Source: Chloroflexota bacterium (lineage in GTDB: Bacteria; Chloroflexota; UBA6077; FW602-bin22; JAMCVK01). From it: DNA of 64,000 bases. The notes below the pieces were generated by a model. The model worked only from the letters and a program-made list of their open reading frames with translations, was not told where the DNA came from and ran no database searches. The stretch is from contig JAMCVK010000004.1 of the NCBI GenBank assembly GCA_023475225.1, positions 1 through 64,000 of the forward strand, given 5' to 3'. The translations under genes were made by a program, and so were the position numbers. Shown here piece by piece: positions 39,295 through 52,693 of the stretch; within the stretch, counting starts at the first letter, position 1; every line of letters starts with the position of its first letter.

Positions 39295-40683
39295 TTAGAG
39301 AAGGCAACTCCCCCTTTCTCGGGTTACGGGGCAGGCGGGGCAGGCTTTAGCCCGGCACCACTGCTTGTAGATATGCAGCAATCCCTGTTGTCTGCGGGCC
39401 GAGTTGATCAGTGAGCCGGTCAAACCCAGGATCTCCTCGGCCATATAGCGGGTGATGGCGTTCGGGGCCGACTTAGGATGGATGCGGTAGAGGGCGATGG
39501 CTTTGATGGTCAGGGCGTCATCGGCGGCGAATTGCCCGTAGGCGAAGGCCCAAGGGAGGATGGTGTTGATCAGGATATCCCTGGCCCTGGCGGGCCCGAG
39601 GCGGGCCGCCTCGGGCCCGCCAGGAAGAGCGTCTCCAGAGGTGGCCGCATTTGGGACCAACAGCGCCCTTTCTAGCCCCTCTTGAGCTCGCCTGGGGTTC
39701 GGCTGCTTCAGGAGGGAGAGGAGCGTCTCCATCAGCCCCTGCTCTGCGTGTTGAGCGAAGAGATGGGCCGCGGCGACAAGGCGGCGCTGGGGAAAGTTCG
39801 CCGGGCGAACCCCAGCCATCCGCCAGGTCTGGCGGCTCAACGGTTGATCCACCCAGTTCTGAAGCCTCGTCTGCCACTCTTGAACCATCTCGGCAAATAA
39901 GGGGCTGGCCTCACCTGGGCAGGCCTCGCTGGAGAGGGGCAGGAAGCCCGCTGCTCCTAAGAAAAGGGCCTGGGCCACCAAACCCCGCCGCACGGGAGGG
40001 GTCTGGCGGAGCAGCGTTTCCACGGTGCTAAGGGGTAGAAGGCGGGACAGCTCCCTGAAGGGAGAGGTGTTTTGACTGTCGCCCAGGGCATCCATGATCC
40101 GCTCGTAAAGCACTTGACCGGCCGCAGAGACGGTCATCTCCGCCTCGCATACGACGGCCCTTTGGCGCATTCTCTCCTCGCCCATCTCCTCAAGGAGCCT
40201 CCCCAGCCTTTGTCCCTCGGCCGCTCCAGCGGCCTCACCATTGAGGGAAGCCGCGGAGCGAACCCTGGCGGCATGGGGGTTTGGTTCCTCCCATATCGTG
40301 GGGAGCGGGTCCTCGACTGGAATGAGGTCGGCCAGGGCCAATACGGCCACGGGCTCCCCATCGGCCCGCAGCGTTGGTTCCATCTCATCGGGCCACATCA
40401 CGACGTGGAGGATGACCTTGTTATAACGGACATCGTGATGGTGTCCGTGTCGGTACCAATCCGAGGAGCGCACGTGAACCTCGATATCCCCATGGAGCAA
40501 GTGACAACCGTCCAGCGTGAGCAGGGCATCGCGGAAATCCGGCCCAGGGTTGGCGCAACGCCGCCCGCGGTAGACGACTTGCAAGGGGCGACCGCTGCTG
40601 GTGGTGAGATTGTCTTTAGCCAGGCGCTGCTCTTGCCAAATGTGGCAGATAAGTCGTTCATTGACCATGGGGGTGGGAATCAT
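39295..40683 (-). CDS. DUF2851 family protein
   Basis: Protein of 462 residues matching the DUF2851 pattern: LCHIWQEQ-like start, LQVVYRGRRCANPGPDFRDALL, then HGDIEVHVRSSDWYRHGHHHDVRYNKVILHVV. This N-terminal region is conserved and rich in Asp, Glu and His, which suggests a metal-dependent nuclease-like site, but no function is established. The C-terminus has clustered cysteines (CRAKACPACPVTRERGSC). The coding sequence contains a perfect 39-base inverted repeat at 39586-39624. Overlaps the upstream protease gene by four bases. Confidence 0.82.
   Translation of the reverse strand: MIPTPMVNERLICHIWQEQRLAKDNLTTSSGRPLQVVYRGRRCANPGPDFRDALLTLDGCHLLHGDIEVHVRSSDWYRHGHHHDVRYNKVILHVVMWPDEMEPTLRADGEPVAVLALADLIPVEDPLPTIWEEPNPHAARVRSAASLNGEAAGAAEGQRLGRLLEEMGEERMRQRAVVCEAEMTVSAAGQVLYERIMDALGDSQNTSPFRELSRLLPLSTVETLLRQTPPVRRGLVAQALFLGAAGFLPLSSEACPGEASPLFAEMVQEWQTRLQNWVDQPLSRQTWRMAGVRPANFPQRRLVAAAHLFAQHAEQGLMETLLSLLKQPNPRRAQEGLERALLVPNAATSGDALPGGPEAARLGPARARDILINTILPWAFAYGQFAADDALTIKAIALYRIHPKSAPNAITRYMAEEILGLTGSLINSARRQQGLLHIYKQWCRAKACPACPVTRERGSCLL
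39586..39624. repeat. Perfect inverted repeat inside DUF2851 gene
   Basis: Two 19-base arms starting CCTGGCGGGCCCGAG are separated by a single G. The element is 39 bases, exactly 13 codons, so it keeps the reading frame and encodes LPGGPEAARLGPAR-like residues. Confidence 0.85.
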
Positions 40684-42071
40684 GGTCTTCCCAACAGCTG
40701 TTCGATGATCGGCCGCACCCCGTTGCTGGCGATGGATAGGCTATGCCCCGACAGTGGTATCCCCTTACGCGTGACGACAGCCGTATTGATCCCCACCACT
40801 TGCCCCTGGAGGTTGAGGAGCGGCCCCCCGCTATGACCGGGGTAGATGGGGGCATCGTGTTGGATAAAGGTGTAGGGTAAAGTTCCTTCAGGAAGGATGA
40901 CCGTTTTGTTCAGGGCACTCACCCGGCCCAGTGATACACTGGGGGCGCGGGGTAGAGAGGGCGTGTAGCCCAGGGCTACTACCCACTGCCCCACCTGGAG
41001 CGCTGCTGAGTCGCCGAGAGGGAGTGTGGTCAGGTCGGCAGCGCCGATCTTGAGCAGGGCCAGGTCTGTCCAGGGATCGGCGTACATAATGCGGGCGTCG
41101 AAGCGGCGACCATCGACCAGCGTTACGGTGGGGTTGGGGTTATTCTGGATCACATGGTAATTGGTCAGGATGCACCCTCGCTTATCGAGGATGATGCCGC
41201 TGCCCCGGCCGCTGCCCTCAGCCATAACCTTAACCACGGCTGGCTGAATGTCCGCCACCAGTTTCTGGATGGTCGAGGTGGTAGCCTCGTCTGGCTGTGG
41301 TTGCGGAGAGGAGGTGATCAGGAGTGGTGACTCCTCCGGGAGGATGGCTGTTGGGGGGAGAAGTCCGGCCTCCTTGGCCAGGTCGCCGCCGTTGGCTGTG
41401 GTTGTCTGTCCGGCCTTGGACCAGGGAACAGCGACCTTCCATTGTTGAATGATGGTGCGTTGGGCCCGCAGGACGTAGGCGTTGCCCATATCGGCCACGG
41501 GGGCCGTGGGCAAGCCGTTCATATGCAGCGGATCAGGCGTGCTGAAGAAGTGGGCCTTAATGGCGGGATAGGGCTCGAGAAGGGCATAACGGCGCTGCAC
41601 GATCTGGGCCCAGGTCAGGTTGGACTCCTCGCTCATATCCATTGGTTTCGGCGTCATTCTGGCCGAGAGCAACCAGTCGTCCCGCCCGGCGCGGCTCAGC
41701 TGATTGAGAACGTTGATGAAGTAGACCTGTCCTGCCTCCGGTCGCCATTGCATGATCACCTTCTGGGTAGCCTGGCACCAGAAGCCATCCCATTGAAAGC
41801 GGCGCGAGGCGGGATAGCCGAGGATCGGTACCCCTCCCAGGCGCTGAAACTCGCTCCAGAAGGGGATGCCGGCCTCATCAGTGAGGCTGAAGCCTACCGT
41901 ACGGCCGGGTGCGCCGCTAGCCTGGGTGTAGAAGTGCCCGCCGGGGATGGTGTAGTCGGCCAGAGGTGTGGCTGTGGTGTACTCAGCCTGGGCCGCTGGG
42001 TCGGGCAGGGCGAAGGCGACGATTAGGGACAGGAGGGCGAGGAAGCATCTTTTCCTATTGTTTCTGGACAT
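40680..42071 (-). CDS. Secreted HtrA-like serine protease with LGYP-type domain
   Basis: Exported protein of 463 residues with a signal peptide (KRCFLALLSLIVAFALPDPAAQA). Residues 40-190 carry a domain common in Chloroflexota secreted proteins: FWSEFQRLGGVPILGYPASRRF, QATQKVIMQWRPE, FINVLNQL. Residues 260-463 form a trypsin-like S1C protease with catalytic His in CILTNYHVIQ, Asp in DPWTDLALLKI and Ser in GHSGGPLLNLQG. There is no PDZ domain, so it is not a full DegP. Probably processes envelope or extracellular proteins. Confidence 0.88.
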   Translation of the reverse strand: MSRNNRKRCFLALLSLIVAFALPDPAAQAEYTTATPLADYTIPGGHFYTQASGAPGRTVGFSLTDEAGIPFWSEFQRLGGVPILGYPASRRFQWDGFWCQATQKVIMQWRPEAGQVYFINVLNQLSRAGRDDWLLSARMTPKPMDMSEESNLTWAQIVQRRYALLEPYPAIKAHFFSTPDPLHMNGLPTAPVADMGNAYVLRAQRTIIQQWKVAVPWSKAGQTTTANGGDLAKEAGLLPPTAILPEESPLLITSSPQPQPDEATTSTIQKLVADIQPAVVKVMAEGSGRGSGIILDKRGCILTNYHVIQNNPNPTVTLVDGRRFDARIMYADPWTDLALLKIGAADLTTLPLGDSAALQVGQWVVALGYTPSLPRAPSVSLGRVSALNKTVILPEGTLPYTFIQHDAPIYPGHSGGPLLNLQGQVVGINTAVVTRKGIPLSGHSLSIASNGVRPIIEQLLGRP

Positions 42072-42144: not shown

Positions 42145-45100
42145 TCAGCGCTGGAGCTCCTCATAAAGGGCCTGGAGTGGGGGGCTGGGCCTCGTCTTCA
42201 GCTCCTTGGCTAAGAAGCGCACATAGCGCTGATAGTGCCGCAAGGCCGCCGGGCGATCCCCAGACAGGGCATAGTAGCGCATCAGGTCGGCATGCGCCTC
42301 CTCCCGATAGTCATCCACGGCCAGGATCCGCCGACAGAGGGCGATGCTCTGCTCATAAGCACCCTTACACCCATAATGGGCCGCCAGCTCGGCCAGGGCA
42401 CGCAGATATTCCTCCTCCAACTCCTCCCGTCTCGTGGAGCACCACTCCGAGTAGAACTCCTCCAGATAGGGGCCACGATAGAGCGCGCAGGCGCGCTCAT
42501 AAAGGGCCACCCGTCGGTCATCCTCCTTGGGCAGCGACCCCGCCTCGTTGATTAAGGACTCAAACTCGGCCACGTCAGACCAGAGGTCTCCCTCTGGATC
42601 GAGGCGATAACGTCCCTCCTGGAGGAGCACGACGCCCGGATAGAGGGCCTGGCGCAGGCGGTACAGCGTTGAATGGAAATTGATACTACCCTTAGACTCC
42701 CGCAGGTCGGGCCAAAGGGCGGCCATCACCTGCTCCCGCCGCAAAGGGCGCGGATGGGCCAGCAGAAAGAAAAACAGCTCCTTCGCCCTCTCAATCCTCC
42801 AGCGCAAGTTATTGACGAGCTCACCATTCAACAACACCCTCGCCTCACCGAAGGCATAGGACTCTATCCGGGGCACAGTCTTCAGCGCCACCCCCAGCGG
42901 TGGCTTTAGCGGCCGCGATTCGGCCGCTGGGGGCTGACCCGCCTCGATCCTCCGCAAAAGGGAGGTCAAACGCCCCCCATCGACCCCCCTGGCGGCCGCA
43001 TAGCGCAACATGGGCCCTGCCCTCCGTCCCTCAGCGACCAGAAAGGCATCGTAACCCAGCTGCGAAACCATATCCAGCGTCTCCCTCAATTGCTCTATGG
43101 AGGCATCCAACTGCTGATCCAAGAAAAGAGACTGGGCCAGGTGGAAACGCGCCCGGGCCAGCTCGCGCTTCGCCCCGCTGCGGGCCAGCAGCTCCGTCGC
43201 CTCAGTCAAACGCTCGATAGCCACCTGCCTCTCCCCACGCTCGTAAAGAAGCGTTCCCAGGGAGATGGTGAGCAAGCCCAGCTCGTAGTCTGAGCCCTGT
43301 TCCTGAGCTATCTGCCAGGACTGCTGGAACAGCTGCTCCGCTTCAGCATAGTCGCCAAGCAGGCGGTGGGTGTTGCCCAGGGCATCCAGACAGTAGGTGA
43401 TCAGGAAGGGATCATCTAACCGCCTGGCCAGCTCCAGGGCCCGCTCATAAGTTTGCCGCGCCCCCTGGTACTGGCCCAGGTCCCGCTGCACATCCCCCAG
43501 GCTGGACAGGGCCAGGCCGGCTACTCGCAGATAGCCAGCCTCCTCGGCTATGGTCAGGGCATTTTCCAGTAGCGCCTGGGCCCGGCTGTGATGCCCCTGA
43601 TGATGATAAAGCACGCCCAAATTGTTGAGGGCTAATGCCCGTGCCCCGGCATTGCCCAGCTTCTCCCAGGAGTGCAGGGCCTGACGATGGTAGGCGATGG
43701 CCTCAGATAAGTCTCCTTGCCGGGCATTGGCCACGCCCAGGGCCTCCTGCACCGCCGCCAGATTGAACAGATCGCCATCCTCGGCGTACAGATCCAGAGA
43801 CCGCTTGAGGTCCTCTATCCCCTCGCTGAACCTCCCCAGGGCGCTGTGGCTCATGCCCATATTCTTGTACGCCTGGGCCAGCACCACTGGCGCTCCCTCA
43901 GGCACCATGGACAAGGCTTTTTGACACTCAGCGATGGACGCCGCATATTGCCTCTTAGACAGTAGGACAGAGCTCTTCAGGGCCAGGGACCTGGCCATAT
44001 TCACCTTATCAGCGACTGCGGCGAAGCAGGCATAGGCCCGCTCGAAAAGCTCATTGGCCGTGTCCAGCTCGTCCCGATAGATGCAGGCTCTGCCCCATTG
44101 CAGGAGAAGGTGCGGGCAATGGGAGAGGGACTCCTCGGGCAGGAGGGCAGACAGACGTAAGAGCGTCTCCCACTTACCGGCATTGACCATCTCTTCGGAC
44201 ACCGCCGCGAGCAGTTCAGCCGCCGCCGCAGGGCGGTCCGCCCGCAGGTAATGCTGGACGGCCTGTTCCCACTCCTTCCCTTCCCGGGCCATGCCCGCCG
44301 CCTTAAGGTGCAAGCTTACAAAGCGCTCCTCATCCTCACGGCGCAGCTTCTCCTCCAGGAACTCCTGGAAAAGGTGATGATATCTATACCAGTCGCCCTC
44401 CAGGCGGATAATAAAGAGGTTATTCTCTTCCAGGTACTCCAGGATGCGCTGGGAATCGGCGCTGCCCAGGAGGTCATCGCAACGCGACGCCTTCATCTGG
44501 GGCAGCACGGCTGAGCCCAGGAGGAACTGCCGCACCTCCTCACTCTGCCGAGCGTACACCTCGGCAGCCAGATAATCAAAGATAGGACCGCCAGCCCCCT
44601 TCGCCCGAATCAGGCTCTCGAACAGCCCTTGCCACATGTTATGCGTGGTCAGGATGATGCCTGTAATCCACCCCTCCGAATGGCTGGCCAGCTCCTCGGC
44701 GGCCTTAGGGGGGAGGATGATCTTGTAGTTCTGGCTCAATAGCTCACGGATCTCCTCGGCAGTGAAGCGCAGGTCGGATATGCCCAACCCGGCCACCTGC
44801 CGATAGGCCGCCAGACGGGAGAGGGTAAGTTTGGGCAGGGTCCTGGTGGCCAGGATGATGTGGCAGTTTTCCGGCAGGTAATAAAGCAAAAGGTCGAGGG
44901 CGGTGTTGACCTCCTCACTGGCATCCACGTTCTGGTAGTCGTCTAAAATGAGGAAGAAATATTCGGGGATGGCCGTCTGTATCTCGCTGACGAGCAGTCC
45001 GATGGCCGAATTCATCTCCCGGGAAACGTCACTGACCTCGCGCAGGAAGGAGCGCATACGCTGCCCGAAAGAGGGGAAGCGTTGGGCCAGGGAGGCAATG

Positions 45101-45348
45101 AGGTATTCCAGGAACACCTTAGGGTCTTGATCAGCGCTCTCCAGCGAATACCAGCAGACCGGCAGCTCGACCTCGTGGGCAAAATCGATGAGCATGGTCG
45201 TCTTGCCGTAGCCGGCTGGCGCAGAGATGATGATCAGACGACGGTCACCGTACTGGTGGAGAAAATCGATCAGGCGCGGGCGGCGGAGGATGTTGGGATG
45301 CCGTGGCGGCACCAGGATCTTGGTGATGAATCTGGGTATCTCACTCAT
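42145..45348 (-). CDS. MalT-like ATPase/TPR regulator with SARP (BTAD) output
   Basis: Large STAND-type transcription regulator of about 1067 residues. The N-terminal NTPase has a P-loop in IISAPAGYGKTTMLIDFA and FFLILDDYQNV as Walker B. The middle (about 380-740) is a run of TPR repeats, for example ALALNNLGVLYHHQGHHSRA. The C-terminal 250 residues are a SARP module: an OmpR-like winged helix (LRREQVMAALWPDLRES, NFHSTLYRLRQAL) and the BTAD domain with LAELAAHYGCKGAYEQSIALCRRIL and GDRPAALRHYQRY. The order is MalT-like, opposite to AfsR, where the DNA-binding domain comes first. The ATG at 45348 follows AGGGGAGC. Divergent from the operator at 45559-45606, which it probably controls. Confidence 0.9.
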   Translation of the reverse strand: MSEIPRFITKILVPPRHPNILRRPRLIDFLHQYGDRRLIIISAPAGYGKTTMLIDFAHEVELPVCWYSLESADQDPKVFLEYLIASLAQRFPSFGQRMRSFLREVSDVSREMNSAIGLLVSEIQTAIPEYFFLILDDYQNVDASEEVNTALDLLLYYLPENCHIILATRTLPKLTLSRLAAYRQVAGLGISDLRFTAEEIRELLSQNYKIILPPKAAEELASHSEGWITGIILTTHNMWQGLFESLIRAKGAGGPIFDYLAAEVYARQSEEVRQFLLGSAVLPQMKASRCDDLLGSADSQRILEYLEENNLFIIRLEGDWYRYHHLFQEFLEEKLRREDEERFVSLHLKAAGMAREGKEWEQAVQHYLRADRPAAAAELLAAVSEEMVNAGKWETLLRLSALLPEESLSHCPHLLLQWGRACIYRDELDTANELFERAYACFAAVADKVNMARSLALKSSVLLSKRQYAASIAECQKALSMVPEGAPVVLAQAYKNMGMSHSALGRFSEGIEDLKRSLDLYAEDGDLFNLAAVQEALGVANARQGDLSEAIAYHRQALHSWEKLGNAGARALALNNLGVLYHHQGHHSRAQALLENALTIAEEAGYLRVAGLALSSLGDVQRDLGQYQGARQTYERALELARRLDDPFLITYCLDALGNTHRLLGDYAEAEQLFQQSWQIAQEQGSDYELGLLTISLGTLLYERGERQVAIERLTEATELLARSGAKRELARARFHLAQSLFLDQQLDASIEQLRETLDMVSQLGYDAFLVAEGRRAGPMLRYAAARGVDGGRLTSLLRRIEAGQPPAAESRPLKPPLGVALKTVPRIESYAFGEARVLLNGELVNNLRWRIERAKELFFFLLAHPRPLRREQVMAALWPDLRESKGSINFHSTLYRLRQALYPGVVLLQEGRYRLDPEGDLWSDVAEFESLINEAGSLPKEDDRRVALYERACALYRGPYLEEFYSEWCSTRREELEEEYLRALAELAAHYGCKGAYEQSIALCRRILAVDDYREEAHADLMRYYALSGDRPAALRHYQRYVRFLAKELKTRPSPPLQALYEELQR

Positions 45349-45446
45349 CGGCGCTCCCCTCTTTTTGTTTCCTGTACCCGCCCACGGCCCCCAGCTCAGG
45401 CGATCTTGGGCCAAACGGACCCTGTTCCGGGACGATCTAGTTAAGA

Positions 45447-45452
45447 ATTATA
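45447..45452 (-). promoter_or_regulatory. Candidate -10 box of the SARP regulator
   Basis: Minus-strand TATAAT about 100 bases upstream of the regulator start. The matching -35 position reads GGAAGA, a poor match, so the promoter may be weak or need activation. Confidence 0.45.
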
Positions 45453-45558
45453 GCATATCTTTACACCCATCTTCCCAGCGTCAAGGTTGGTGGGGCTATC
45501 CGATCCTCGTTCGGCTGGATTTTCCCTGCAAGATGGGGCGAAGGTGCGCTTAGAACTG

Positions 45559-45606
45559 GTTTGGCGAGGGTTTGTTCAGAGTTTGTTCAGAGGTAGCCTT
45601 TACAAT
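45559..45606 (+). promoter_or_regulatory. SARP-type operator with 11-bp repeats and -10, copy 1
   Basis: GTTTGTTCAGA occurs at 45570-45580 and 45581-45591, exactly 11 bases apart. A degenerate unit GTTTGGCGAGG precedes in phase at 45559-45569. TACAAT follows at 45601-45606 after nine bases. Direct repeats with 11-bp period just upstream of -10 are the known architecture of SARP binding sites. Confidence 0.75.
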
Positions 45607-45657
45607 ATAAACGGAGGGTGGAGAGTTTCGCCCTATTAAACGATATGGAGGAAGGCG

Positions 45658-45762
45658 ATGCGGAAGGTGCGCGAGGTCTATTGGCAGGTGGGGTATTTGC
45701 TGTTGGTGCTGGTAGCGTTGGTGCTGGCCAGCGGTGCGCCGAACGATTGGCCAGGGGGATAA
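45658..45762 (+). CDS. 34-residue hydrophobic peptide, copy 1
   Basis: Very short gene that begins MRKVREVYWQVG, continues with a Leu/Val/Ala helix (YLLLVLVALVLAS) and ends GAPNDWPGG. ATGGAGGAAGGCG supplies a strong ribosome-binding site seven bases before the ATG. A second copy at 49135-49239 differs in sequence at synonymous sites and at the last residue only, indicating selection on the protein. Basic N-terminus, hydrophobic core and small residues before PNDWPGG resemble a signal peptide with a short mature end. Function unknown; candidates are a secreted signalling peptide for the adjacent TPR regulator or a small membrane protein. Confidence 0.75.
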   Translation: MRKVREVYWQVGYLLLVLVALVLASGAPNDWPGG

Positions 45763-45805
45763 TCTGAGAGGGGCAGTGGCGATCGGGTTGGCTGGGTAAG
45801 GAGAG

Positions 45806-45853
45806 ATGCTCCTGGCCGTTGTGGTCGTAGGGCAAGGTGGAGGGATACATCTG
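45806..45853 (+). pseudogene. 5' stub of a DUF5317 gene
   Basis: The first codons (MLLAVVVVG) are the same as those of the intact DUF5317 gene at 49286, including the GGAGAG leader. Similarity stops at 45833, where unrelated sequence begins and a stop soon follows (after QGGGIHL). It marks the break point of the duplicated module. Confidence 0.75.
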
Positions 45854-45873
45854 TAGCGTAAAGGGGTGGAACG

Positions 45874-46917
45874 ATGAAGATCAATGGTTCAAGGCTGTTG
45901 AGGGGTATCCTTGAGGTTGGCGGGTTAGCCATTCTGGTGCTGGTCATCGTAGTGGTCTTTGGGCAGGTGAATGCGGGCAGACCGTCGAGTACCCCGGCTG
46001 GGATGGAACTAACTCTGCCGCTGGCTGTCAGCCCAACAGTAGGGGCGTCAGTTTACATTTCCCGAGAAGTGGTCGTCACCCCAAGGGGATCTGCTCCTGG
46101 CGAGGTTGGTATCCAGGAGGTACCTGGCGGTCCAGCCGGGCCAAAAAGTTTCGCTGTTAGACCGGATGGGGAGGTGTACATCCTGGATACAGTAAACCAT
46201 CGCATCAACAGGTACGCAGGTCAGGGAACGTTCCTGTCCAGCGTCGTTTACCAGCCGTCTATCTTTGGCTGTGACCTGGCTGTCGCCTCGGATGGGGCCC
46301 TTTATGTGCTGGACGGGTCAGACTTTTGGACAGTAAGGCGATACGAACCAGATGGCACCCCATCCTTGGTGTATAAGCACCCTATGCGAATACAGATATC
46401 CCACATCGGGCTTGTCGCCGCTAACCTGCTGGCCGAGAGCCGAGGGATCGGTGCAGATATGGTTATCACCCTTGGGAATGCTCAGCGGGAGTTCTCCCCG
46501 AATGAGCAGGTGAGGACGAAACGGGACGGGTTGCTCTATCGAGCGGGTACCTTCACGGGGAGATTGGTGCGGAGTGCCACGGGGAAAGGAGGTTATGTAG
46601 AGAGAGTCCTGGCCGATGGGAAGATGTTGCGACTAGACCTCACCGTGGATGGCTTCGTGGCGGCAACGCCTGGCTTCGATGTGGATGTTGCTGGGAATAT
46701 CTACGTCGTGGTTCAGGTAGACAGGAATGGTCGAGGGGATATCGATGAACGGGTGCTGAGGTACAGCCCCGCTGGGAAGTTGCTGGACAACGTGGATATA
46801 GACGACAGGTATTATGCCGTTCCCTCGAGAGCTGTCCTGGTCGATGAGCGGGGTGACATTTATCAGCTCCTCCCGGCGAAGGACAGAACAGTTATAAAAA
46901 AGTGGGAGAGGAGGTAG
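45874..46917 (+). CDS. Secreted propeller-like (NHL-type) repeat protein
   Basis: Exported protein of 347 residues. The N-terminal signal anchor is LEVGGLAILVLVIVVVFG. The rest has repeated short strands of the NHL/beta-propeller style: FAVRPDGEVYILDTVNHRIN, LAVASDGALYVLDGSD, FDVDVAGNIYVVVQVDRNG and LVDERGDIYQLLP. Likely an extracellular binding or sensor protein. Lies immediately after module copy 1 and 19 bases before the NlpC/P60-like gene, so all may be read from the SARP-controlled promoter. Not matched to a named family. Confidence 0.75.
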   Translation: MKINGSRLLRGILEVGGLAILVLVIVVVFGQVNAGRPSSTPAGMELTLPLAVSPTVGASVYISREVVVTPRGSAPGEVGIQEVPGGPAGPKSFAVRPDGEVYILDTVNHRINRYAGQGTFLSSVVYQPSIFGCDLAVASDGALYVLDGSDFWTVRRYEPDGTPSLVYKHPMRIQISHIGLVAANLLAESRGIGADMVITLGNAQREFSPNEQVRTKRDGLLYRAGTFTGRLVRSATGKGGYVERVLADGKMLRLDLTVDGFVAATPGFDVDVAGNIYVVVQVDRNGRGDIDERVLRYSPAGKLLDNVDIDDRYYAVPSRAVLVDERGDIYQLLPAKDRTVIKKWERR

Positions 46918-46936
46918 GGGGATAAATGGTAGCATT

Positions 46937-48892
46937 ATGAACGTCACGACACCTGTTTGTGTTGCTGTCTGTATTTTGGCTTATGTAATCTCGTCGGTAA
47001 CTACCTCCTTTCCGGTGAGCTTTGGAGAGCAAGGCGTAGAGGCCTCTGCGCCGGAAGCCCTTCCTCGGGAGCGAGCCATCTGGACGGCTGAGGATTACCG
47101 CTCCTATGAGTGGTATGCCAACGATGTGGGACTTCAGGTTGGAGTGCGCTACAACTGGGGTGGCTTCGATAGCATCGGTACCTTTCAGAGCAAGCTCGGC
47201 GGCAATGCTACTGGAGGGGTGGATTGCTCCGGCTTCGTCTCGCGGGCTTGGGAGTTGCCAGTAAAGTATAGCACCTATACGCTAACCGATGTATCCTCCC
47301 CGATTGACCGTTTCTCTGCCCAACGGGGTGATATCTATCTGAAGAATGTCTCCGATCCTTCTTTGTCTCACGTCGTTCTCTTTTACTACTATCATCCAGT
47401 AGAGGGGTACCCGATCTTCTATGAGGCGACGGCGGCTGTGAATCCCCCCAGGGTGATATTGAATAAGGAAGATGGATGGAGAAAGATCACTTCCGATTAC
47501 GAGGCACGGCAATATAACAACATCGCTTCGGCTCTTTATACTTATCTTCCCTACGTTAAGGCTGGTGGGGGCTGGCATACTTATATTCGGGTCAGGAACA
47601 TGGACGCCTTCAATGCGGCCAGTGTGGTCATCGAATTCTACGATGGTGGGGGTAGCCTGTTGGGATCAAGTGGGTCGTTCAGTGTTGCCCCTGGAGGCGT
47701 TCAGGCCAGGGATGCAGCGGCATACACGAGCGCCGATTTGTGCGTGGCCATTGTGAAATCTGACCACCCGGTCGCTGTTACCGCGGAGGTAAATGGAGGT
47801 GTTCCTGGTGCAGCTGGCTATGAGTCGACGGTGTATTCGGGGATAACCAATGGCTCGGATAAGGTCTTTCTCCCTTCGATTCTGAAGAATGTCTGGGGTG
47901 GCTGGAGCACGGATTTCAGTGTGATGAACATTGGGAGGGAGGCGGCCAATGTCTGGGTCAAGTACTACCGGCGGCTCACCAATGAGGTGTACACGGAGGG
48001 TCCTTTCCTCATCCAGCCCAATGGCTTTCTCAATCGGGACCAGAGGTCCATCTTGCCAGACAACTATGATGGGTCGGCCGTGGTCTATACGGCCAGTGGG
48101 GAGAGCGATGCCAATCGTCAGGTTGTGGTGGTGGCTCGCGAGCGGCTAGATCCGTCCACCATCGCTGAGCTGTATGACGGTTTCAACAGTGAAGATGGAC
48201 GACGGGCGGTGCGGGCGCCAGTGATCATGAACAACTACTATGGTTGGAGCACCACCTTTGTGGTGCAGAACATGGGCTGTCGGGAGAGTTGGGTGGACGT
48301 TCAATACCGGCGGGAGGGGGATGGTGCTGTCTACGATGAACCGAATGAGGCTTCCCTTCCTCCCATCAAGGATATGCAGCTGTACAATCCTAACAGCAAC
48401 CTACCGGGAGGTTTCAATGGGGCTGGGGTGGCCACGACGGAGTGGGCAGCGCACCAGCCGCTGGCCGCTATCGTCAATGAGTTCAACGGGACGAGTCTGA
48501 CGATGAGTTATGAGGGGTCCTCGATAGGGGCGAACATCCTCTATGCCCCGACGGTGTTCAAGCGGGCTGGGGCGAACAGCATCTCGTCGTCGATCACGGT
48601 GCAGAATCTGATGGGTTATGCGACCACGGTGTACATCGCCTATTATTGGGGAGACGGGACAGCTGTATCTGGGGCGACGCAGGGGTTCGTGGTAGAGCCG
48701 CTTAAGTCCCATCTGGTCTATCTGCCGAACAATGGGAATCTGCCGGATGGCTTTGATGGGTCGGCGTACATCTGGAACAATGATGGGGCTCGGCTGGCAG
48801 TAGTGGTCAATATTGAGGATGGGGGTACGCAGGGGGATCGGGGGCGCAGTTACACGGTGCCTATCCCTAGGGTGGATGAGAGCAATCCTTAG
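46937..48892 (+). CDS. Secreted NlpC/P60-like protein with C-terminal beta repeats
   Basis: Exported protein of 651 residues. After a signal segment (VAVCILAYVISSVTTSFPVS) comes an NlpC/P60-type domain: GVRYNWGGFDSIGTF, the catalytic-cysteine motif GGVDCSGFVSRAWEL and the histidine in LSHVVLFYYYHPV. From about residue 200 to the end there are four related beta-rich repeats of about 110 residues, each with an XXNXXXGWST-FXVXNXG-like pattern (for example SILKNVWGGWSTDFSVMNIG and PVIMNNYYGWSTTFVVQNMG). The repeats may bind wall or polysaccharide. Ends 34 bases before a 44-bp perfect palindrome. Confidence 0.82.
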   Translation: MNVTTPVCVAVCILAYVISSVTTSFPVSFGEQGVEASAPEALPRERAIWTAEDYRSYEWYANDVGLQVGVRYNWGGFDSIGTFQSKLGGNATGGVDCSGFVSRAWELPVKYSTYTLTDVSSPIDRFSAQRGDIYLKNVSDPSLSHVVLFYYYHPVEGYPIFYEATAAVNPPRVILNKEDGWRKITSDYEARQYNNIASALYTYLPYVKAGGGWHTYIRVRNMDAFNAASVVIEFYDGGGSLLGSSGSFSVAPGGVQARDAAAYTSADLCVAIVKSDHPVAVTAEVNGGVPGAAGYESTVYSGITNGSDKVFLPSILKNVWGGWSTDFSVMNIGREAANVWVKYYRRLTNEVYTEGPFLIQPNGFLNRDQRSILPDNYDGSAVVYTASGESDANRQVVVVARERLDPSTIAELYDGFNSEDGRRAVRAPVIMNNYYGWSTTFVVQNMGCRESWVDVQYRREGDGAVYDEPNEASLPPIKDMQLYNPNSNLPGGFNGAGVATTEWAAHQPLAAIVNEFNGTSLTMSYEGSSIGANILYAPTVFKRAGANSISSSITVQNLMGYATTVYIAYYWGDGTAVSGATQGFVVEPLKSHLVYLPNNGNLPDGFDGSAYIWNNDGARLAVVVNIEDGGTQGDRGRSYTVPIPRVDESNP

Positions 48893-48926
48893 GGTGATAA
48901 ATTGCTGGGGTTAACCAATGGGGATA

Positions 48927-48970
48927 GCTGTGAGGCGGGTGGGGCGCATGCGCCCCACCCGCCTCACAGC
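48927..48970 (+). terminator. 44-bp perfect palindrome after NlpC/P60 gene
   Basis: Two 22-base arms beginning GCTGTGAGGCGGGTGGGGCG meet at a central GCATGC with no loop. As RNA it would form a very stable hairpin. No U-tract follows, so it may terminate or stabilise the upstream mRNA by another route, or act at DNA level. Module copy 2 starts at its right edge. Confidence 0.6.
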
Positions 48971-49023
48971 CTCGTTCGGCTGAATCTTCCCTGCAAAATG
49001 GGGCGAAGGCGCGTCTGGAACTG

Positions 49024-49082
49024 GTTTGGCGAGAGTTTGTTCAGAATTTGTTCAGAGTTTGTTCAGAGATAGCCTTTACAAT
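49024..49082 (+). promoter_or_regulatory. SARP-type operator with 11-bp repeats and -10, copy 2
   Basis: Units GTTTGGCGAGA (49024), GTTTGTTCAGA (49035), ATTTGTTCAGA (49046) and GTTTGTTCAGA (49057) follow each other with a strict 11-base period. TACAAT is at 49077-49082, nine bases after the last unit, the same spacing as in copy 1. Confidence 0.78.
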
Positions 49083-49134
49083 ATAAAACGGAGGGTGGAG
49101 AATTTCGCCCTACTAAACGATATGGAGGAAGGCG

Positions 49135-49239
49135 ATGCGGAAGGTGCGCGAGGTCTATTGGCAGGTGGGGTATTTGCTGTTGGTGCTGGTGGCGTTGGTT
49201 TTGGCCAGCGGTGCGCCGAACGATTGGCCGGGGCCATAA
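49135..49239 (+). CDS. 34-residue hydrophobic peptide, copy 2
   Basis: Second copy of the peptide gene, with the same ribosome-binding site. Starts MRKVREVYWQVG and ends GAPNDWPGP; only the last residue differs from copy 1, while several codon third positions have changed (for example GTA/GTG Val and CTG/TTG choices). Lies 46 bases before DUF5317 and is probably on its transcript. Confidence 0.75.
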   Translation: MRKVREVYWQVGYLLLVLVALVLASGAPNDWPGP

Positions 49240-49285
49240 TCGGCTGAGAGGGGCAGTGGCGATCGGGTTGGATGGGTAAGGAGAG

Positions 49286-49909
49286 ATGCTCCTGGCCGTT
49301 GTGGTCGTAGGGCTCCTCGTTTCCCTCTGGCATGGGGGGCTGCGGTGTCTGCTGTCCCTGCGCATTGCGCTGGGGTGGCTTGTCCTGCTGGCCCTGGCCA
49401 TCCAGGCCTATGGGGTCTACGGGCTGCCGGCCGCCGGTTTGACCTTTCCCATCGTCCTGGGGGCAGGGGGCGTAGCCAAGCTACGGGCGCTCATCTTCAG
49501 CGCTTCTTCTGTCCTCTTGCTGCTGGTGCTCTGGCGCAATCGCCATCTTGGGGGGATGGGGCTTATCGCTCTGGGACTGGGCTTGAACCTGGCGGTGATG
49601 CTGGCCAACGGTGGTTTTATGCCCATCACTCCAGAGGTGGTGACCCAGATTGGACATCTGGAGCGGGTCTATCCCAGCGAAGTAGGGCTGCTGGTGGGCG
49701 GCTCGAAGGGCATTGTGCTCCTGAGGGAGCAGACCAGGTTGTGGTTCCTGTCGGACATCCTGATCCTTTCCTCCAGGGCCTATAGCCCGGGCGACCTCAT
49801 CCTGTGGGTGGGGCTCTTCGTCTTCTTGCAGGGTGGCTCTTCGCCGCTGGCCTGGTTGAAGCGAGCCTCAGGACGCTGCCGCCGACGGGGTGAGCAGGGA
49901 GCCACCTGA
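49286..49909 (+). CDS. DUF5317 integral membrane protein
   Basis: Membrane protein of 207 residues with about five helices, for example AVVVVGLLVSLWHGGL, LGWLVLLALAIQAYGVYGL and IALGLGLNLAVMLANGGFMPI. The NGGFMPITPE motif and later SDILILSSRAYSPGDLILWVG loop are typical of DUF5317, a family found in Chloroflexota and Actinobacteria without known function. It is preceded by the 34-residue peptide gene and the phased operator. Confidence 0.82.
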   Translation: MLLAVVVVGLLVSLWHGGLRCLLSLRIALGWLVLLALAIQAYGVYGLPAAGLTFPIVLGAGGVAKLRALIFSASSVLLLLVLWRNRHLGGMGLIALGLGLNLAVMLANGGFMPITPEVVTQIGHLERVYPSEVGLLVGGSKGIVLLREQTRLWFLSDILILSSRAYSPGDLILWVGLFVFLQGGSSPLAWLKRASGRCRRRGEQGAT

Positions 49910-50055
49910 TTACCGACGGCCAGGAGCGGCCATAATTCAGTCAGAGGTCCTGCCTATCCACGTACAGAGCTCGCCGGAGGGCGACTCGGACACGGCGGGG
50001 ATGGTATCCCTGGCCGAAGGGGTTGGTTTGTCCTGCGGTGAGACCGACTGAAGAT

Positions 50056-50075
50056 GAGCCCCCTTAAGGGGGCTC
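50056..50075 (+). terminator. 20-bp perfect palindrome before the NHLP-like gene
   Basis: GAGCCCCC and GGGGGCTC flank a TTAA loop. It could end the DUF5317 transcript or act in the 5' leader of the next gene, whose GAGGAGG lies shortly downstream. Only a weak T-poor tail follows. The spacer 49910-50055 before it holds no recognised feature. Confidence 0.5.
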
Positions 50076-50098
50076 TAATCTGACGATGAGGAGGCAGC

Positions 50099-50362
50099 AT
50101 GTCTTACTATGGCCTACAGGCGGTCGTTGGTACGGCCATCGTCGATCGACAGTTCCGCGATGCGCTACTGGAGGATGCGGAGGGGGTCATTGGTGGGTTC
50201 GACCTGACTGAGGAGGAGTTCGGGGTGGTGGCCTCCATCAGGGCCAATAGCCTGGAGCAGTTCGCCGCCCAGCTGCACGATTGGCTCACCACGTCCTCCC
50301 CGCCGCTGCGGCGGGCGAGGTGGTCGGGGATCGACTATCGGGCCCTGCGCCTGGCTGGTTAA
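50099..50362 (+). CDS. NHLP/Os1348-like small protein (RiPP-leader-like)
   Basis: Protein of 87 residues resembling the nitrile-hydratase-alpha-like leader peptide clan (Os1348/Franean1_4349 types): VVGTAIVDRQFRDALLEDAE, then GFDLTEEEFGVVASI and LEQFAAQLHDWL. In RiPP pathways such regions are leaders of precursor peptides. The C-terminal tail (TTSSPPLRRARWSGIDYRALRLAG) would be the core, with Thr, Ser and Trp available, but no Cys. GAGGAGG precedes the ATG. No maturase, cyclodehydratase or lanthipeptide synthetase gene is nearby, so it may instead be a stand-alone regulatory NHLP protein. Confidence 0.65.
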   Translation: MSYYGLQAVVGTAIVDRQFRDALLEDAEGVIGGFDLTEEEFGVVASIRANSLEQFAAQLHDWLTTSSPPLRRARWSGIDYRALRLAG

Positions 50363-50363
50363 G

Positions 50364-50668
50364 GGGCGAGTCCTTCCCTCTGGAGGGAAGCTCCCTCCAG
50401 AGGGAAGGGAGACCGTCGAACGATGGGGGTTCCAAGGGGGGCACAGCCCCACAGCTGGGATGGACTGTGGGACACGACCTTTCTTCCCCTTCTCCCGCTG
50501 GACTGGAAGCCCGCCGAAGGAGGATGGGGAGTGTCCGCCTTCGGCGGATGGGAGAGGGAGCAAGGGGTGAGGGTCAACTGGGATGGTCCGGGGATGCAGC
50601 CTATAGCCAGATCCCCTTCTCCCGCTGGGGGAGGTCTAGGGGGAAGCCCCCTCTAAAGGGAGGGTTAT
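50364..50668. repeat. Mosaic hairpin repeat block
   Basis: Contains TCTGGAGGGAAGC/GCTCCCTCCAGA inverted arms, GGGGCACAGCCCCAC, GTCCGCCTTCGGCGGA and CTTCTCCCGCTGGGGGAGG. Sequence from 50669 to 50772 shows nothing recognisable. Confidence 0.75.
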
Positions 50669-50772
50669 AAGCGGGAGCTCTCCTGAGTGTTCGCTGCTGA
50701 GGTTAGGCATCTATTATGTAGAAGGGATGATCCATTGTTGGGTTTGAGATATGTAGCGGTCGAGGTAGGGGG

Positions 50773-51159
50773 GTGGTGTTCATTAAGAAGAGGGTTTTGA
50801 TTGGTGATGCCAATTTGGCCATTCGCCAGCTACTGGGCTTTACGCTGGGCGAGGATGACTTCCAGCTCTTCTACGCTGGGGATGGGGAGGAGGCTCTGCG
50901 GGTGGGCTTGTGTGAGAAGCCCCATCTGGCCCTGTTGGAGGAGGAGCTACCTGTCTTAAGCGGAGGGGAGGTTTGTCGTCTCTTGAAGAAGAACATCCCG
51001 GGGATAAAGGTTATTCTGTTTTCCAGCCGGGATGGCGATGAGGCGGGCTATGGGACGAATGGTCGCCTGGTTAAGCCCTTCAGTCCCCTGGCGTTGCTCC
51101 AGAGGGTCTACGCGTTGCTGGAGGGTGAGGAAGAGCAACAGCAGAGAAACGCTGGCTGA
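50773..51159 (+). CDS. Stand-alone receiver-like protein lacking phospho-Asp
   Basis: Single CheY-like receiver of 128 residues. RVLIGDANLAIRQLLGFTL has the acidic pair position reduced to one Asp, and the phosphoacceptor strand reads LALLEEELPVLSGG, with Glu where Asp is expected. The conserved Thr/Ser (VILFSSRDGD) and Lys (GRLVKPFSPLALLQRV) remain. Glu can mimic phospho-Asp, so this may be a constitutive or phosphorylation-independent pseudo-receiver. Start GTG at 50773 or 50776. It may act with the PAS-HD-GYP gene 530 bases downstream. Confidence 0.8.
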   Translation: MVFIKKRVLIGDANLAIRQLLGFTLGEDDFQLFYAGDGEEALRVGLCEKPHLALLEEELPVLSGGEVCRLLKKNIPGIKVILFSSRDGDEAGYGTNGRLVKPFSPLALLQRVYALLEGEEEQQQRNAG

Positions 51160-51204
51160 GCGCAGCCTTTGTCCCGCGGGGGTGGAGATGTGCTGTGGCA
51201 AGGT

Positions 51205-51452
51205 TCAGGGTGGGGCGCAGCCCCACTAGTGGGATGGTCTGGAGATGCGGCCCATATCCAATCCACCCTTCTCCCGCGGATTAGGGGTATCCCCAAGCCT
51301 TTGTTCCCCCTCTCCCGCCGGAGCAGGGGGTAGTCCAGAAGGGGGGCAACCCCCCTTCTGGTGCGCCGAAGGCGGATATCCGCCTTCGGCGGATGTCCTA
51401 GCTTACCTATCCCCCCTTCTCCCGCTGGGAGAAGGGGGCAGGGGGATGAGGG
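51205..51452. repeat. Mosaic hairpin repeat block
   Basis: Includes GGGGCGCAGCCCCACTAG, CAGAAGGGGGGCAACCCCCC, two facing CCGCCTTCGGCGG-type hairpins at about 51364-51396, CTTCTCCCGCTGGGAGAAGG and GGGGGATGAGGGCC. The remaining 51453-51691 holds no recognised gene. Confidence 0.75.
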
Positions 51453-51691: not shown

Positions 51692-52693
51692 ATGGCCACA
51701 AATAATCTCGAGATATTTAAGGCAGTATTAGAGCAGCTGCCTGAAGGCGTGGTCGTCGTTGATGACAGTGACGAGATCATTTTTGTAAACAGGGCGGCTG
51801 AGGAGATCAGGCGTATTTCAGCGACTCAAATAACTGGACGCAATGTGGTATTGTGCCACCCGGAAAAATCCCATGAAAGGGTCGGGCGGGCCTTACAATT
51901 CTTAAGGAGGCAAGAAACAAGGGCTTTCACCAGGATGGTTATAGATAAAGAGCAGGGCAGGTATTACGAAAACACCTATGCTCCGGTTAGGGATGCGGCA
52001 AGCAATTATATTGGTTCAGTGGTGGTCTCCAGAGACATCACAGATAAACGCCGACTGGAAGAAGAAAGGGCGCTGCACCTGCAAAACCTGGAGGAGAAGG
52101 TGGCTGAACTATCGGGGAAGCTACAAGACCTGTTTATAGCTTCGATGGCCAGTCTGGTGAAAGCCCTTGAGGCTAAAGACCGTTACACGCAGGGGCACTC
52201 CTTGCGCGTCAGTGATATAGCCGTAAAGATGGCTGAGCACATATGGGGAGTTTCGCCAGAAGCCAACGAGGTAGGCTTAGCGGGCAAACTTCACGATATA
52301 GGCAAGGTGGGTATTCGGGAGATGATACTCAACAAACCAGCAAGACTAGCCGACGAGGAATTCGAGCATATAAAGGCTCACCCCCTTATCGGAGAGCGGA
52401 TACTGGCGCCGATCGAGAAACTTAAGCCTGTGGCTAAGGTGATCGCCCATCATCATGAAAGATACGATGGAAAGGGCTATCCAGCCAGTCTAGGGGGAGA
52501 GGGGATACCGGTGGGGTCCAGAATACTGGCGCTGGCAGACAGTTACGATGCGATGACGTCGGCCAGGCCTTATCGTCCGCCAAAGAGTGCTGAGGAGGCC
52601 GCGAAAGAGATCAGGAATAACTTAGGAAGGCAATTTGATCCTCGATGGGGCGAGATATTTTTAGAACTCTTTTACTCTGGCAGTATCGGGTAG
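51692..52693 (+). CDS. PAS-HD-GYP phosphodiesterase-like protein
   Basis: Sensor plus likely cyclic-di-GMP phosphodiesterase, 333 residues. The N-terminal PAS domain (EQLPEGVVVVDDSDEIIFVN, then YYENTYAPVRD and GSVVVSRDITDKRR) leads through a coiled coil into an HD-GYP domain: KDRYTQGHSLRVSD, AGKLHDIGKVGIRE, KAHPLIGERIL, HHERYDGKGYP and DSYDAMTSARPYR. All HD and GYP residues are present. GGAGGTGAACAT precedes the ATG. Cytoplasmic, no membrane segment. Its codons look somewhat more AT-rich than those of its neighbours. Confidence 0.92.
   Translation: MATNNLEIFKAVLEQLPEGVVVVDDSDEIIFVNRAAEEIRRISATQITGRNVVLCHPEKSHERVGRALQFLRRQETRAFTRMVIDKEQGRYYENTYAPVRDAASNYIGSVVVSRDITDKRRLEEERALHLQNLEEKVAELSGKLQDLFIASMASLVKALEAKDRYTQGHSLRVSDIAVKMAEHIWGVSPEANEVGLAGKLHDIGKVGIREMILNKPARLADEEFEHIKAHPLIGERILAPIEKLKPVAKVIAHHHERYDGKGYPASLGGEGIPVGSRILALADSYDAMTSARPYRPPKSAEEAAKEIRNNLGRQFDPRWGEIFLELFYSGSIG

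Follow-up and report, generated by a model that had tools for sequence, protein, structure and literature searches.

What do a MalT-type regulator with a SARP output and two nearly identical modules, each with direct repeats, a -10 box and a short peptide gene, do together in a Chloroflexota bacterium? The arrangement lies in the window analysed here, the first 64,000 nt of contig JAMCVK010000004.1 (assembly GCA_023475225.1), and includes a gene for the membrane protein DUF5317. The gene set is widely conserved in bacteria and without a description in the open-access papers searched, and it has the appearance of a peptide signalling system, hitherto unrecognised, with a link to cyclic di-GMP (c-di-GMP). 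Computation across relatives finds a conserved regulator-peptide-DUF5317 locus, a constant operator-promoter geometry, covariation of recognition helix and repeat, conservation of the peptide tail among paralogues, and a c-di-GMP context; DNA binding, export, cleavage, signalling and the identity of the receptor we infer. Open-access literature on Chloroflexota peptide quorum sensing, on SARP/TPR/Chloroflexi and on RRNPP systems yielded no description of this locus.

Recurrence of the regulator-peptide-DUF5317 locus

The original prediction described a MalT-architecture TPR regulator with a SARP output beside two near-identical modules, and the sequence is as described. The regulator begins with a MalT-type part, continues with an extended TPR stretch and has a BTAD match at residues 925-1065 (E 8.9e-26). 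The SARP portion of AfsR in the solved structure 8hvr aligns with residues ~860-1064 (E 5.6e-7), the alignment to this chain covering residues 15-219 of the 222-residue C-terminal region. The regulator thereby shows the SARP order of an OmpR-type DNA-binding domain followed by a BTAD. It falls outside the MalT equivalog NF003420, with a score of 254.5 bits under a curated cut-off of 537 bits, and its AAA-TPR-BTAD order is not that of RRNPP regulators, which have an N-terminal Xre-type HTH (or none, as in Rap), a C-terminal TPR part and no AAA domain.

Using the single peptide as query, four weak matches were found, each in a gene arrangement that is wholly or partly the same. A six-peptide profile and DUF5317 were then each searched across 400 Chloroflexota genomes, and many peptide matches of the profile adjoin DUF5317 genes. 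Neighbourhoods were gathered for ~60 loci and then for 80 named DUF5317 loci from GTDB genomes, related loci not being independent of one another. In 68 loci the regulator precedes, in the same orientation, the next core gene, which is DUF5317 or, in three, HD-GYP. Between the two, a hydrophobic peptide open reading frame (ORF) of 28-59 aa is present in 66 of the 68; one of the two loci lacking it in the scan, L128, has one by eye. In a matched-scan control within the same loci, a peptide-type ORF was found in 50/54 gaps after the regulator vs 15/302 other gaps. An ORF of the NHLP clan like that of the window lies 3' of DUF5317 in 43/57 regulator loci, and 5' in some others. The original prediction had staked itself on a repeat-peptide-regulator association in related genomes, and this association recurs in many Chloroflexota families.

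Operators and the recognition helix

In both modules the run of 11-bp repeats is preceded by a degenerate extra copy (GTTTGGCGAG-). The double repeat of 21 bp is restricted to the two modules within the whole genome (2.74 Mb), and a reversed-pattern control gave 0 matches. An Rfam scan of the window gave no matches. Module 1 (45505-45833) pairs with 48970-49313 at 90-99% identity by segment, and is a partial copy of module 2, as the duplication takes in the initial 28 bp of the DUF5317 gene. The published SARP rule sets a repeat spacing of 11 or 22 bp and a distance of 8 bp between the 3' repeat and the -10 box (PMC10936776). The window modules follow this rule, the gap from repeat to -10 box being 9 nt as framed here and 8 nt with the repeat unit shifted by one base. 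The phasing and common nine-base spacing claimed at the outset are thus present, with TACAAT at 9 nt twice.

The same geometry is found in relatives. Near-perfect repeats (a match at 8 or more of 9 positions) were sought at lags 7-35 in 64 non-duplicate regions upstream of the peptide. Lag 11 accounts for 19 regions with such repeats, lag 12 for 25 and lag 22 for 8, with ~0.8-1.0 expected for each. No comparable excess was seen in these regions at other lags from 7 to 35 bp (maximum 5, at lag 35), nor at lags 11 and 22 in peptide loci without an adjacent regulator. A -10-like TAnnnT lies 9 nt behind the 3' repeat unit in 23/34 cases, the modal gap; the scan looked for TAnnnT itself, which makes its position informative and its presence not.

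Repeat period and repeat sequence both vary with the regulator. FKN/FKK recognition helices go with 12-bp repeats in 18/19 cases, mostly TTGAAGCCT, and other helices with 11-bp repeats in 11/14 (Fisher 2e-5); the 12-bp period of the one helix class is a variation on the SARP rule. Repeat distance correlates with helix distance after removal of AAA-domain distance (partial Mantel r 0.53, p 2e-4), also in 20 non-redundant loci with <55% AAA-domain identity (r 0.42, p 2e-4), and AAA-domain distance contributes nothing to repeat distance beyond helix distance. This covariation is the strongest computational support for a regulator that reads the repeats. The earlier proposals that the repeats follow SARP spacing and are bound by the regulator are borne out by the enriched lags and indirectly supported by the covariation, respectively.

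The peptide tail, DUF5317 and the c-di-GMP context

No family in Pfam or NCBIfam matches the peptide. All peptides have a common layout: they begin with basic residues, continue with one hydrophobic stretch and a motif of small residues (SGA or AGA), and end in a tail usually of 3-20 residues. Their alignment has no part of sufficient conservation for finding related loci. Tail sequences vary between genomes. Where two to four peptide genes stand in tandem, the leaders of the copies have up to 5 nonsynonymous codon differences and their tails 0 (L143, L173, L163), tail differences being synonymous only, except at the last residue in the window. The two peptide genes of the window differ in 4 synonymous codons and 1 nonsynonymous codon, that of the last residue. 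This pattern of synonymous change supports translation of the peptide genes and selection on the tail.

Additional evidence comes from one Chloroflexota branch (L114-L116, L214-L233) in which DUF5317 is fused to an MFS transporter. Leaderless mini-ORFs of 8-10 codons with a ribosome site lie between the riboswitch region and the peptide gene in 18/19 loci examined, and end in K-(G/P)-(W/F/Y) as the peptide does, e.g. MAPLNTLKPY and ...GAATLKPY in L222, or MAPDSSLKGF and ...GGASLKGF in L227. Because tandem copies keep their tails and mini-ORFs repeat the tail motif, the C-terminal end is probably the conserved, functional part of the peptide. Of the original suggestion that the regulator may be tuned by the peptide or its C-terminal end, the importance of the C-terminal end has indirect support; sensing by the TPR region fares less well, tail-TPR covariation being weak and DUF5317 the more constant partner.

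DUF5317 is the constant partner of the peptide, in a pairing that is wider than SARP. In Paenibacillus and Cohnella, 20/20 loci have DUF5317, then a peptide of 30-45 aa, then a GGDEF/HD-GYP gene (domains assigned from one example), without a SARP. These loci include L165, L166, L171, L208 and L162; an example peptide is MKKFEGIKYSRIVINAIIVASVVVALTSGYKLGG. In a Clostridiales genome (L187) the peptide stands ahead of HD-GYP-DUF5317, and peptide plus DUF5317 without an adjacent regulator is found in other Chloroflexota loci as well. The AlphaFold model of DUF5317 is confident (predicted local distance difference test score 86.6), with five predicted transmembrane helices. By charge, loops 1 and 3 and the C-terminus are placed inside and the conserved loop 108-166 outside, on which side the peptide tail is expected as well. 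The fold has no match in the PDB (best E 4.8), sequence searches gave no convincing relative, and no mention of DUF5317 was found in the open-access papers searched. DUF5317 is also present in Thermotoga maritima, in which peptide quorum sensing has been reported (PMC6022435).

The link to c-di-GMP is made by fusions, neighbours and riboswitches. In a metagenome-assembled genome of Bipolaricaulota, a DUF5317-PAS-GAF-GGDEF fusion (L169:1557-4325) lies downstream of an HD-GYP gene. In the DUF5317-MFS branch, c-di-GMP-II riboswitches lie 5' of the peptide in 15/23 loci, the order being SARP regulator, riboswitch, then a peptide/HD-GYP/DUF5317-MFS operon. A c-di-GMP-II-GAG riboswitch (L083:9875-9958, minus strand) is directly upstream of two tandem peptide genes; no other type II peptide locus has a riboswitch. 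A cobalamin riboswitch match at L116:6628-6744 (plus strand) has no relation to the peptide locus.

The features of the window are collected in Table 1. Homologues of the two secreted-protein genes between the modules are not among the recurrent neighbours of related loci, and these genes seem to be local cargo. The "cell-surface programme" envisaged by the original prediction rests on these two genes. The prediction also overlooked the NHLP-clan gene and HD-GYP as members of the conserved locus, and likewise the c-di-GMP link. A gene resembling histidine (sensor) kinases recurs near the locus in 25/63 loci, e.g. L159:1846-2601, and no widely recurrent further gene was found in the neighbourhoods beyond this cluster. 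The Os1348/NHLP-clan gene is a regular DUF5317 neighbour in Chloroflexota (the window and ~60 related loci), without maturation enzymes for ribosomally synthesized and post-translationally modified peptides (RiPPs), and in L184 it is located among tandem peptide genes. A RiPP reading was rejected: the NHLP gene is there, yet no RiPP-modifying or maturation enzyme recurs in the locus neighbourhoods, and NHLP membership does not imply RiPP function. An HtrA-like trypsin protease gene (40680-42071, minus strand) is directly downstream of the regulator, and dispersed intergenic copies of a CCCCTTCTCCCGCTGGG-type repeat, similar to repetitive extragenic palindromic elements, occur at 50480-51440.

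Table 1. Features of the peptide locus in the window.
Feature	Position	Strand	Evidence
MalT-type AAA(NOD)-TPR regulator with C-terminal SARP output (OmpR-type winged HTH and BTAD)	42145-45348	-	1067 aa from ATG; domain and structure alignments; orthologue upstream of peptide in 68 loci
Module 1: incomplete copy of module 2, with promoter, peptide gene and the initial 28 bp of the DUF5317 gene	45505-45833	+	Sequence comparison with module 2
Module 1 putative SARP-type operator: 11-bp direct repeats GTTTGTTCAGA, two copies	45570-45580, 45581-45591	+	Degenerate copy at 45559-45569
Module 1 -10 box TACAAT	45601-45606	+	9 nt behind last repeat
Peptide gene 1, MRKVREVYWQVGYLLLVLVALVLASGAPNDWPGG	45658-45762	+	34 codons; GGAGG upstream
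NHL-type propeller protein, predicted to be secreted, 3' of module 1; cargo without conservation in the locus	45874-46917	+	NHL 21.6 bits, cut-off 20
Predicted secreted protein, weak NlpC/P60-like N-terminal part; cargo	46937-48892	+	17.4 bits, below cut-off 23
Module 2 repeats: three good 11-bp direct copies, 49035-49045, 49046-49056 (ATTTGTTCAGA) and 49057-49067	49024-49067	+	Degenerate copy at 49024-49034
Module 2 -10 box TACAAT	49077-49082	+	9 nt behind last repeat
Peptide gene 2, MRKVREVYWQVGYLLLVLVALVLASGAPNDWPGP	49135-49239	+	34 codons; GGAGG upstream; last residue P
DUF5317 membrane protein, 5 predicted transmembrane helices, conserved loop 108-166 predicted outside	49286-49909	+	DUF5317 E 2.2e-24
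Os1348-family NHLP-clan protein, conserved neighbour of DUF5317	50099-50362	+	NF038399 58.6 bits, cut-off 40
Receiver-domain protein	50773-51159	+	Domain match
PAS-HD-GYP protein, predicted c-di-GMP phosphodiesterase	51692-52693	+	Domain match; HD-GYP genes recur beside DUF5317 elsewhere

Proposed mechanism, rival explanations and known systems

Because of the recurrence, the operator geometry, the conservation of the tail, the DUF5317 pairing and the c-di-GMP context, a conserved peptide-signalling locus is the explanation that we favour, with confidence a little better than even: the SARP would activate the peptide, DUF5317 and the NHLP-clan gene, the exported tail would be the signal, and DUF5317 would sense or process it with an output through c-di-GMP. 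The cytoplasmic AAA-TPR-SARP regulator would bind direct repeats of 11 or 12 bp that overlap the -35 region, and recruit RNA polymerase as AfsR does at afsS. Transcribed together would be the short peptide gene, DUF5317, the NHLP-clan gene and often an HD-GYP gene, with positive feedback provided by the SARP promoter. The peptide, with its charged N-terminus, one hydrophobic helix, SGA/AGA motif and short tail, would be inserted or exported with the tail outside, and the tail probably released by cleavage. DUF5317, with its large conserved loop predicted on the same outer side, may then read or process the tail; neighbouring c-di-GMP enzymes would carry the output, and in one branch c-di-GMP turnover may also be an input. 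In this genome the promoter-peptide module, duplicated in part, would now also head the two secreted-protein genes.

Several points weigh against a signalling locus of this kind. The loci were collected via DUF5317 or the peptide, so that neither peptides nor regulators are sampled at random. HD-GYP lies within 2.5 kb after DUF5317 in just 20/50 regulator loci, and no conserved exporter, protease or importer gene is among the recurrent neighbours. The two tails of the window are unlike in the last residue (APNDWPGG/P), and the proline that follows SGA would be an obstacle to signal-peptidase cleavage there.

The best-surviving rival is an RRNPP-like mode, in which the tail, once taken up again, is bound directly by the regulator's TPR domain, DUF5317 being an accessory of export or processing. 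RRNPP systems encode a small secreted peptide beside the regulator; here the gene of a peptide that may be exported adjoins it, as in PlcR-PapR or Rgg-SHP, the promoter would be autoregulatory, and the leaderless mini-ORFs would supply the tail in a cytoplasmic version. The TPR part shows covariation with tail distances (beta 0.32, p 0.017), AAA and BTAD do not; this covariation is weak, however, and the leader shows it as well. Peptide and DUF5317 persist without the regulator in all 20 Paenibacillus/Cohnella loci and in other Chloroflexota loci, and no peptide permease is in the locus. As to the receptor, covariation favours TPR, too weakly to decide between it and DUF5317, and the phylogenetic pattern favours DUF5317. 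Overall we regard the RRNPP-like mode as unlikely, if worth keeping in mind.

The constant DUF5317 pairing, the hydrophobic helix and the DUF5317-MFS fusion would also suit a peptide that is not secreted and serves as a one-helix membrane subunit or regulator of DUF5317 (a sensor or transporter), with the SARP merely controlling the operon; the "tail" could then be a binding surface. Two to four tandem peptide genes per single DUF5317, leaderless mini-ORFs with the same end motif, and tails that diverge between genomes yet are identical among copies in one genome all argue against such a subunit, which appears rather improbable. SARPs often control antibiotic genes, and small hydrophobic peptides in tandem copies under SARP control beside an NHLP-clan gene might be antimicrobial or self-acting toxins with DUF5317 as immunity protein; the conservation is very wide and vertical-looking, however, the partners are c-di-GMP enzymes and riboswitches, and no modifying enzymes or exporter are conserved, leaving little room for a toxin. 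Chance, i.e. a mechanical short ORF with accidental repeats, has in its favour that both are common and that the peptide lacks a database family, and is effectively ruled out by the synonymous-change pattern, the lag statistics, the gap control and recurrence in distant families.

Known systems resemble parts of the locus. AfsR-afsS of Streptomyces likewise combines a STAND-ATPase/TPR/SARP regulator with direct repeats of 11 bp, the 3' one lying 8 bp from the -10 box, and with an adjacent target gene for a small protein (PMC10936776). In the window regulator, in contrast, the domain order is reversed, with the SARP C-terminal; the small product is a hydrophobic leader-plus-tail peptide and not AfsS; the partners are DUF5317, NHLP and HD-GYP; and many loci have a 12-bp period. 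RRNPP systems (PlcR-PapR, Rgg-SHP, ComR-ComS) share a TPR regulator beside the gene of a short hydrophobic peptide, whose promoter is autoregulated, and tandem propeptides occur in them (compare PMC11343458), whereas here the output is a SARP and not an Xre-type HTH, there is an extra AAA domain, a membrane protein is the constant partner, and the phylum differs. MalT and LAL regulators share the N-terminal AAA and TPR sensor architecture, but here a C-terminal SARP replaces the LuxR-type HTH and the target is a peptide operon. Other c-di-GMP-II riboswitch-controlled genes are comparable to the branch with a riboswitch ahead of the peptide operon, although the target here is a tiny peptide and its leaderless twin, with HD-GYP and DUF5317; no report of a tiny-peptide target of this riboswitch was found in the open-access papers searched.

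More speculatively, and with more doubt than belief, DUF5317 could represent a new class of peptide receptors in the membrane, with a coupling to c-di-GMP. Leader-plus-tail peptides would then serve in at least Chloroflexota and Bacillota (and, by the fusion, Bipolaricaulota), with species-specific tails as pheromones; one branch would have a leaderless intracellular twin under a c-di-GMP riboswitch, and the Chloroflexota SARP-TPR regulator would close an autoinduction loop.

Peptide signalling is well known in Bacillota. We know of none described in Chloroflexota, a large phylum whose members form filaments and biofilms, for which this locus provides a testable candidate. Paenibacillus polymyxa, with a simpler version, and the cultured Ornatilinea apprima, with four tandem peptide genes, are possible laboratory hosts. 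The locus gives DUF5317 and a family of unannotated peptides a likely role, ties such peptides to c-di-GMP, and extends SARP promoter logic beyond actinobacteria, in variants of 11 and 12 bp that go with the type of recognition helix.

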